Of a stretch of 49,998 nucleotides of DNA, positions 30,791-32,620 are shown piece after piece. The notes under the pieces are model-generated. The model saw nothing but the letters and a program-made list of their open reading frames with translations, searched no databases and was not told where the DNA came from. The stretch comes from Bacteroidia bacterium (GTDB lineage: Bacteria > Bacteroidota > Bacteroidia > JAIBAJ01). The first letter of the stretch is position 1. Each line of letters begins with the position of its first letter. Location of the stretch: contig JAIBAJ010000012.1 of the NCBI GenBank assembly GCA_019695265.1, forward strand, positions 1 through 49,998, written 5' to 3'. A program made the translations under genes and the position numbers.

Positions 30791-32620
30791 TTAATACAAT
30801 ACTCGGAATCGAATAGTGGCCGCAACCTTTTTCAATTCTTCCAAAACATGGGAATCGTACTGTTTATTGATATCCGTAACAAGATAACCCACCAGGTTGT
30901 TGGTAGATAAGTATTGTTGGGAAATATTTAAACGGTGTCTGGCGAAAGTGCTGTTTATTTCGGCAAGTACCCCGGGAACATTTCGATGAATATGGAGAAG
31001 GCGGTGAGCATGAGGAAAGGTCTTCAAATCCATTTCGGGCAAATTCAAGCTGGAATTGGAATTTCCGGTATTGATATAAGAAATTAATTTTTGTGCCATT
31101 TCCTTAGCAGCCAAAAACTTGGTTTTTGTTGTTGAAATGGATTCCTGAAAGCTGAAATCCAAGGGAAAATTAATGGACAATTGTCTCATTTTCTCCCAAC
31201 CTTCCGGAAGTTGAGCATCCATGCAAGCTTGTATACATTTCTGTGTTTGGAATAAGTGAACCACAATGGCATAAGGTATGGCTTTAAAACCGCCGGAGCA
31301 AATAAGACTAAACCTGGTTTTTGATTGAAAATTTGATTTTTTCAATTCAGGGTACTTCTCGTTTGAATGCCTGCAAAGCACTACCACATCGGAATGAAGT
31401 AGCGATTTAAAACTTTCCAACCTCCCTTCCACATGGTTGGGATACACCTTTTCTGAATCCCAAACCATCACCTCTACTCCTAGCCCAACTAACTTCTGAT
31501 ACAGCCATTTTCCTTCACTTCCCATTCCGGAAATACCCACCTTAATTTCATCCAAGAATTTCCCTCCTTGTTCTCCCGATTTGGCAATTTTTAGGATTTT
31601 ATACAAATCATATTCTGCTCTTCCTATGGCTTCTGCTTCCGGTGTGTGGAAGACTGCAGTACCTCTCAGGCTTAAATCGGACAATCCTTCCTCACCGGCA
31701 CTTCCTGCAATTCCCAGGCATAGCAATCGTTTAGCCGTTTGAACTTCCACAGCGTTTAGCAAGGAACTTTCCTTTAGACACAAAACAGTAGATTCGGAAA
31801 GGGCGGAAGTCAAACTTTCTTTATTGAAATACTTCACTTGATATCCTTCCTCCAAAAACATTTGTTCTGCAATAGGATGCAGACCGTTTTCCAATAACAC
31901 TGAAATTCGATTCTTGGGATAAGAAATACTACCTTGAATTTTGTTCAGATATAAAAATTCATCGAAACTAGGAGTAATATGATCGGCAGTTGAAAGAATC
32001 TTTTGTCGGGTAATATTCTCGGTATAGGCAAAAAATTTATGTGCAATACCGGCTTCCCGCATCTGATAATCGCTGTAACCATCACCGATAACATAAATAT
32101 TGCCTTGCAGGTTTAACTTCTTTAACTGGTAAATTTTACCATCCGGTTTCGACAATTCATTTTCATCATCAAATCCCACAATTTTCTTTTGATCATCCAG
32201 CTTAAAAGTATTGGCATAAATTCGCTCCGATGGAATACCTAAAGGCTTTAAAATAGGATCAATAAACTCCTTAAAACCTGCCGATATGACAATAATTTGT
32301 TGCCCATAATCTTTAAAGAACCGTTGGTTTCTCTTCACTGAACCTGAAATCTTTTTTTTGAGTCTGTTCACTAAAATATCGAGGTGTTTTTCTTCAGCCC
32401 CCAATAAAGCGATTCGTCTTTTTAATGATTCAGTGAAACTAATTTCTCCATCAATCCCCAAGTCCGTAATATGCTTGATTTCATGGAGAATTTGGTTTCT
32501 TTTAGGATTCCCTTTTAATGAGATTTCGCCTAATTCCTCAAATGCCTCTACCTGGGTAAGGGTGCTATCAAAATCAAAAACAAAGGTGATATCTTCTAGT
32601 TGCTTCTTTCGGCTTGTCAT
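30791..32620 (-). CDS. Phosphoserine phosphatase fused to a degenerate phosphoglycerate dehydrogenase
   Basis: A 609-residue fusion. Residues 10-225 are an intact HAD phosphoserine phosphatase: DFDSTLT with Asp16/Asp18, the Ser113 region VISAGFKEF and GDGYSDYQM at 179-187. Residues 235-530 align with D-3-phosphoglycerate dehydrogenase, and 535-609 are a well-kept ACT domain (HAHRLLHIHRNVPGVLAEIN, ending IRFRVLY). In the dehydrogenase half the usual active-site blocks are lost. The CIGTNQ segment is CLGIAGSAG (301-309); the Arg-bearing NxSRG strand is LICSGGF (439-445); the Glu of the DVFPEEP block and the His of PHIGGST are not recognisable (QLPEG, SFQESIST). The start at 32620 fits the phosphatase N-terminus; a further 101 codons upstream look non-coding. 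The product can probably hydrolyse phosphoserine, but the dehydrogenase step is doubtful. Confidence 0.85.
   Translation of the reverse strand: MTSRKKQLEDITFVFDFDSTLTQVEAFEELGEISLKGNPKRNQILHEIKHITDLGIDGEISFTESLKRRIALLGAEEKHLDILVNRLKKKISGSVKRNQRFFKDYGQQIIVISAGFKEFIDPILKPLGIPSERIYANTFKLDDQKKIVGFDDENELSKPDGKIYQLKKLNLQGNIYVIGDGYSDYQMREAGIAHKFFAYTENITRQKILSTADHITPSFDEFLYLNKIQGSISYPKNRISVLLENGLHPIAEQMFLEEGYQVKYFNKESLTSALSESTVLCLKESSLLNAVEVQTAKRLLCLGIAGSAGEEGLSDLSLRGTAVFHTPEAEAIGRAEYDLYKILKIAKSGEQGGKFLDEIKVGISGMGSEGKWLYQKLVGLGVEVMVWDSEKVYPNHVEGRLESFKSLLHSDVVVLCRHSNEKYPELKKSNFQSKTRFSLICSGGFKAIPYAIVVHLFQTQKCIQACMDAQLPEGWEKMRQLSINFPLDFSFQESISTTKTKFLAAKEMAQKLISYINTGNSNSSLNLPEMDLKTFPHAHRLLHIHRNVPGVLAEINSTFARHRLNISQQYLSTNNLVGYLVTDINKQYDSHVLEELKKVAATIRFRVLY

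Follow-up and report, generated by a model that had tools for sequence, protein, structure and literature searches.

A SerB-SerA fusion whose dehydrogenase half has decayed, and the recurrence of such decay in the class Bacteroidia: a probable phosphoserine phosphatase, possibly controlled by serine

What remains of a fused enzyme of serine biosynthesis when one of its two catalytic halves decays, and why the remainder should be kept, is the question raised by a gene found in a stretch of 49,998 nucleotides of a Bacteroidia bacterium (contig JAIBAJ010000012.1), hereafter the window. The gene, whose features are collected in Table 1, belongs to the SerB-SerA fusion family, as indicated by the succession of a HAD domain, a SYPKNRI junction, a 3-phosphoglycerate dehydrogenase (PGDH) and an ACT domain, and by full-length orthology (alignment A1); the fusion-family profile matches the 609-aa protein with 810 bits over positions 3-633. 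Its neighbours within the window encode a class III aminotransferase and a carboxyltransferase, neither of which is a serine-pathway gene, and no close-range flanking gene was shared with the intact relatives checked.

Table 1. Features of the fusion gene, in positions of the window
Feature	Position	Strand	Residues and remarks
Whole gene, SerB-(decayed SerA)-ACT	30791..32620	-	609 aa; ATG at 32620, stop at 30791-30793; open frame
HAD-IB phosphoserine phosphatase domain (by homology)	31958..32584	-	residues 13-221; D16 nucleophile, D18, S113, K162, D180, D184
Remnant of the N-terminal substrate-binding part of PGDH	31631..31924	-	residues 233-330; starts at the conserved SYPKNRI
Remnant of the NAD-binding part of PGDH	31106..31630	-	residues 331-505
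Surviving Rossmann beta-alpha-beta unit	31457..31540	-	residues 361-388, VGISGMGSEG...GLGVEVMVWD
ACT domain	30794..31009	-	residues 538-609; serine-contact residues H545, N547, N565 (alignment to 1psd/1sc6)

The HAD-IB domain scores above cut-off (Pfam PF12710, residues 14-187; NCBIfam TIGR01488, 68.4 against 45; residues ~13-189), all four HAD motifs are present (FDFDST at 15, with the DxDST nucleophile, S113, K162 and GDGYSD at 179), and a PDB sequence search with residues 13-221 retrieved the phosphoserine phosphatase-like 3kd3 (4.3e-28). When columns conserved in at least 95% of the intact SerB-SerA fusions are taken as reference, the window protein keeps 50 of 50 in this half, and a previous sequence-only reading, according to which every HAD motif was preserved, proved correct from D16 through D184. 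The equivalog model TIGR00338 gives about 69-72 bits (68.7), under its cut-off of 144.15, a threshold not reached in any of the 48 tested genomes with a fusion. A search of the organism's own genome with SerB models found no match besides the fused gene, and in the 23 other genomes that carry a decayed fusion the matches were likewise confined to the fusion gene. The 609-aa protein is likely to be the phosphoserine phosphatase of this organism, the substrate of its HAD domain being assigned by homology.

In the PGDH part, only 16 of 35 reference columns are kept in the N-terminal portion and 18 of 83 in the NAD-binding portion. Mean identity to the intact fusions is 56% for the HAD domain, 31% and 21% for these two portions, and 53% for the ACT domain, while pairs of intact fusions at similar HAD identity are about 65-66% identical in the dehydrogenase. 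Both Pfam domains score below their cut-offs (PF02826, NAD-binding, 22.0 against 25.1; PF00389, catalytic, 15.2 against 24.6), where an intact fusion scores 174 and 118 bits, and the NF008759 score is 146.6 against a required 404. In type II PGDH, the substrate is bound by cationic residues (Arg53, Arg134' and Arg235 of the human enzyme), and His282 is catalytic (PMC6300728). Across the intact fusions R285, K366, R465, E494 and H517 (numbering of one of them, L011) are invariant, and their equivalents in the window protein are K283, a deletion, a gap or Gly, E473 and Gln492. Because residues 456-510 contain no histidine at all, the loss of the catalytic His is independent of the alignment, and an alignment artefact was rejected as its cause. 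The N-terminal remnant reads LKESS in place of IRSKT and has no CIGTNQ; the NAD-binding remnant has lost the GxWDK stretch and PHIGGST, and has SGG where SRG is expected. The earlier claim that CIGTNQ, the substrate Arg, the Glu block and the His block are missing holds for all four, with the reservation that E473 still aligns with the catalytic Glu, while the statement that the Rossmann strand survives solely as VGISGMGSEG was too narrow: G362, G365, G367, G370, G381, V384 and D388 are all kept, and the survivors of the NAD domain cluster in its first beta-alpha-beta unit with the GxGxxG...D fingerprint retained. Compared to an active type II PGDH, the protein lacks the cationic residues and the His and falls short of the Pfam cut-offs, and it does hold an ACT domain with its serine contacts.

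It could be argued, from E473 and the nucleotide fingerprint, that the dehydrogenase half still functions through rearranged catalytic residues. However, with the substrate Arg, Lys and Arg and the catalytic His all replaced or deleted, as the alignment with intact fusions confirmed, with NAD-domain identity down to 21%, and with a separate intact SerA in the genome, we consider this highly improbable. In agreement with the previous reading of this half as non-catalytic, dehydrogenase catalysis has almost certainly been lost from the 609-aa protein.

AlphaFold2, run with the same 19-sequence alignment on the window protein and on an intact fusion as control, returned a pTM of 0.48 for the former versus 0.78 for the latter, and pLDDT values of 34-53 at residues 421-500 versus 75-96 where the control has the corresponding blocks of the NAD domain; the HAD (pLDDT mostly 80-95 in the window protein) and ACT domains were modelled confidently in both. 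A shallow alignment as the sole reason for the low confidence was rejected on the strength of that control. As a divergent query profits less from 19 sequences, however, the low values are better read as loss of a recognisable fold pattern than as disorder. A Foldseek search with the window model placed E. coli PGDH (1yba/1psd) and Ser33 on top, followed by phosphoserine phosphatases, and a PDB sequence search with residues 231-609 returned type II PGDHs, the match coming mostly from the last hundred residues. These data also bear on whether the surviving Rossmann strand could still bind NAD(H) or another nucleotide, so that the phosphatase would be tuned by redox state or nucleotide as well as by serine. 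The GxGxxG motif and the acidic residue that closes strand 2 are in fact kept in three of the five families with decayed fusions (f1, that of the window, f11 and f25), where catalytic residues are lost, and simple counting puts the chance of finding all four fingerprint columns among the 18 of 83 kept at about 0.002. Against this, the glycines also serve the fold and act as anchor points of the alignment, no confident fold was obtained for the second half of the domain in the window protein, and the domain was thrown out altogether in the other two families (f41 and f14). Nucleotide binding is, in our opinion, improbable.

The ACT domain, which the sequence-only reading had called well kept, indeed keeps 26 of 28 reference columns and matches PF22629 above cut-off (46 bits, residues 541-604). 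Its residues H545, N547 and N565 align with H344, N346 and N364 of E. coli PGDH, where L-serine is held at the ACT interface by H344, N346 and N364' (PMC6300728). This triad is invariant in the intact and decayed fusions examined wherever the region could be aligned, and as the intact fusions have it too, its retention in decayed forms could partly be inheritance.

The loss of a dehydrogenase would be tolerable if the cell had another one, and the suggestion that a second serA be sought in the genome was borne out: a separate SerA of 320 aa with intact motifs (contig G000:C38) adjoins a DUF1015 gene; both 2-hydroxyacid dehydrogenase domains are present in it, and ACT is absent. With this enzyme and an ordinary SerC encoded on a different contig (G000:C6), the dehydrogenase of the fusion could be dispensed with. 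Another intact-looking 2-hydroxyacid dehydrogenase of ~320 aa is also encoded in this genome (L002, G000:C119). As type III PGDH lacks an ACT domain and is not regulated by serine (PMC6300728), and the fusion keeps its H-N-N triad, the serine-type ACT sits here on the phosphatase and not on SerA. More generally, an ordinary SerA was found in 23 of the 24 genomes with a decayed fusion versus 24 of the 45 with an intact one. Per genome this association is significant (Fisher p=0.0003), even though the fourteen genomes of f41 and the five of f11 are non-independent samples in that count; per family it is 5 of 5 versus 6 of 10 (p=0.23). The 23 genomes have an ordinary SerC as well. The exception, G368, is 98% complete and has neither SerA nor SerC detectable; since the two genes lie a short distance apart in its congener G239, a single assembly gap or a single deletion could account for both absences, and the organism might alternatively be a serine auxotroph. 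In G014, which lacks an ordinary SerA, a different SerC-like aminotransferase lies immediately downstream of the fusion, an arrangement shared by two further loci (L044 and L045).

Our comparison was made at the level of the class, the order-level set containing only the window's own genome. Class-level genomes and named contigs yielded intact SerB-SerA fusions, about 626-636 aa long, from ten families of the class and from named Bacteroidota, Chryseolinea among them, in line with the sequence-only reading, which had noted intact fusions in Bacteroidota. A search of named contigs with P0001 yielded 7 loci, all intact where the gene was complete, L044 and L045 being partial or gapped. One intact, Bacteroidota-like fusion (L043) sits in a record titled Candidatus Roizmanbacteria, which could reflect a mis-binned contig or horizontal transfer. 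Among the entries listed, the sole bare HADs of the family were those of G055, G213, G240 and G288, each beside an intact SerA-ACT gene. These genomes belong to genus g52 of family f12, where HAD and SerA-ACT are two adjacent genes (L022/L035 at G055:C6 in the first of them); the fusion occurs in genus g12 of that family, and the two-gene state could be a secondary split or ancestral. No description of a SerB-SerA fusion or of its decay was found in the literature searched, and the passages found in the GapMind and gap-filling papers make no mention of it; the oomycete fusion, which joins steps one and two of serine synthesis, was set aside as a different one.

Decay of the dehydrogenase is not peculiar to the window. 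A profile survey of 395 genomes of the class found decayed fusions in its family, f1, and in four others, and this recurrence, as well as the excision of the Rossmann domain in two of the families, goes beyond what had been claimed for the locus. In f11 (five genomes) the protein is full-length, has Tyr in place of the substrate Arg and lacks the His, and in the single genome of f25 (L015) both substrate Arg residues are Gly while His and Glu are kept. The L015/L051 gene (G024:C162:6603-8495, minus strand) has lost CIGTNQ and keeps 77 of 83 conserved columns of the NAD domain, apparently an early stage of decay. In f41 (fourteen genomes; L023, L086-L098) and f14 (three genomes; L021, L024, L115, L116) the Rossmann domain has been excised to leave HAD, a stub and ACT, the complete genes encoding about 424-446 aa. 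HAD motifs and ACT are retained in the decayed fusions of all five families, and no decayed fusion without ACT was listed in the class survey. In one f14 genome (G056; L024, L050), assembled as a single contig, frameshifts or splits affect the fusion, SerA and SerC alike, a pattern that points to sequencing errors and not to a biological cause.

In a tree of the HAD and ACT domains the five decayed groups sit apart, and a single origin of all decayed forms was rejected by the AU test (p=0.0001), as were pairings of the window group with f11 (0.008), f41 (0.002) and f25 (0.028). Because groupings of the window with f14 and of f11 with f41 were not rejected (0.42 each), we count at least three independent losses, conservatively, rather than the five that the best tree suggests. 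Between closely related decayed proteins dN/dS was 0.12-0.22 in the dehydrogenase body versus 0.04-0.05 in the HAD domain, with dS near saturation; selection on the body is relaxed, and yet, with the same saturation in mind, dN/dS stays well below 1.

An assembly artefact or an existing pseudogene was rejected as the origin of the decay, as the frame is open and the same type of decay is found in other genomes. A gene merely on its way to becoming a pseudogene, with neutral decay of the dehydrogenase, the remainder to follow and no special regulation, would agree with a dehydrogenase part that evolves far faster than in intact fusions and with an NAD-binding half without a confident fold. It would not agree with the conserved columns of HAD (50/50) and ACT (26/28), with the gene being the only SerB match of its genome, or with some 285 eroded codons free of stops, for which the chance is about 1e-8 with random codons of the same base composition, even though an open frame would be needed in any case to reach the ACT domain downstream. 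We consider this fate very improbable. Less easily dismissed, albeit still unlikely, is the possibility that the phosphatase needs the ACT domain just for dimerisation or stability, with no regulation by L-serine and the dehydrogenase remnant as filler. Pairs of ACT domains do form dimer interfaces (PMC6300728), and the dehydrogenase body was dispensable in f41 and f14; the serine-contact residues themselves, however, and not the fold alone, are invariant in the decayed proteins examined.

Our preferred reading, to which we give somewhat better than an even chance, is that the protein is a phosphatase attached to a dead SerA body, in which the ACT domain senses serine and slows the phosphatase, feedback having moved from SerA to SerB. 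The protein descends from a bifunctional fusion of SerB with a type II, ACT-bearing SerA, whose dehydrogenase then almost certainly lost catalysis; HAD and ACT have stayed under strong constraint, and the dehydrogenase body would persist as a mere spacer or dimer scaffold. ACT domains from two subunits would pair and bind L-serine at their interface through H545, N547 and N565', and their movement, relayed by the remnant, would slow the phosphatase at high serine, shifting feedback from step 1 (SerA) to step 3 (SerB). Such a relocation is favoured because the ACT domain was kept even though a stop after the HAD domain would have been easiest, and because mycobacterial SerB2 offers a precedent. 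Against the reading stand the TIGR00338 score under its cut-off, the presence of the triad in intact fusions too, and G368, whose decayed fusion is accompanied by neither SerA nor SerC. From fusion ancestry, catalytic loss, a kept HAD domain and serine site, a SerA without ACT, a single SerB match and recurrence, all of which can be read directly off the genes, we infer phosphatase activity, serine binding and the direction of control. As for the earlier proposal that serine sensing through ACT controls the phosphatase, the domain and its triad are indeed kept in every decayed relative examined, which supports it, and the control itself would be the further step. Whether the class as a whole tells the same story we regard as evenly balanced: feedback may have been relocated at least three times from the first to the last enzyme, with the SerA body inactivated or excised where a second SerA is present and the orphan ACT turned into a switch for the phosphatase, and, jointly with this, the families may represent stages of erosion, from Arg to Gly (f25), through full-length dead proteins (f1, f11), to excision (f41, f14).

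If regulation is true, these fusions would offer a graded natural series from an enzyme domain to a regulatory linker, its intermediates still extant and a spare SerA being the permissive condition, and would mean that feedback control can travel along a core amino-acid pathway. A caution for annotation also follows, as decayed fusions are matched by PGDH profiles and might be labelled SerA, even though they very likely do not make phosphohydroxypyruvate.

Compared to known systems, the window protein is closest to the intact SerB-SerA(ACT) fusions of Bacteroidota (L040 of Chryseolinea serpens and L011), with which it shares domain order, whole-length orthology at 36-47% identity, and the HAD and ACT motifs, whereas the PGDH active site, intact there, is lost and eroded here. 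E. coli SerA, a type II PGDH (PDB 1yba/1psd), represents the source of its C-terminal two thirds and has the ACT serine triad in common with it, but the catalytic and substrate residues are lost here and no confident fold was predicted for the NAD-binding half. The type III SerA of the SerC-SerA pair with DUF1015 known from the class, for which no serine feedback is known as it lacks ACT, supplies with SerC steps 1 and 2 in the window's genome, where the two genes lie on separate contigs. A SerB of 413 aa in the same class (L030) has, by eye, an ACT-like extension at its N-terminus and HAD at its C-terminus. Mycobacterial SerB2 is an ACT-bearing phosphoserine phosphatase with L-serine as feedback effector (PMC10564941); its two ACT domains are N-terminal and it does not descend from PGDH, whereas the window protein has a single C-terminal ACT derived from SerA and, going by residue conservation, a putative serine effect. 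By analogy with SerB2, the sole serine-binding ACT found in the pathway would now control the phosphatase.
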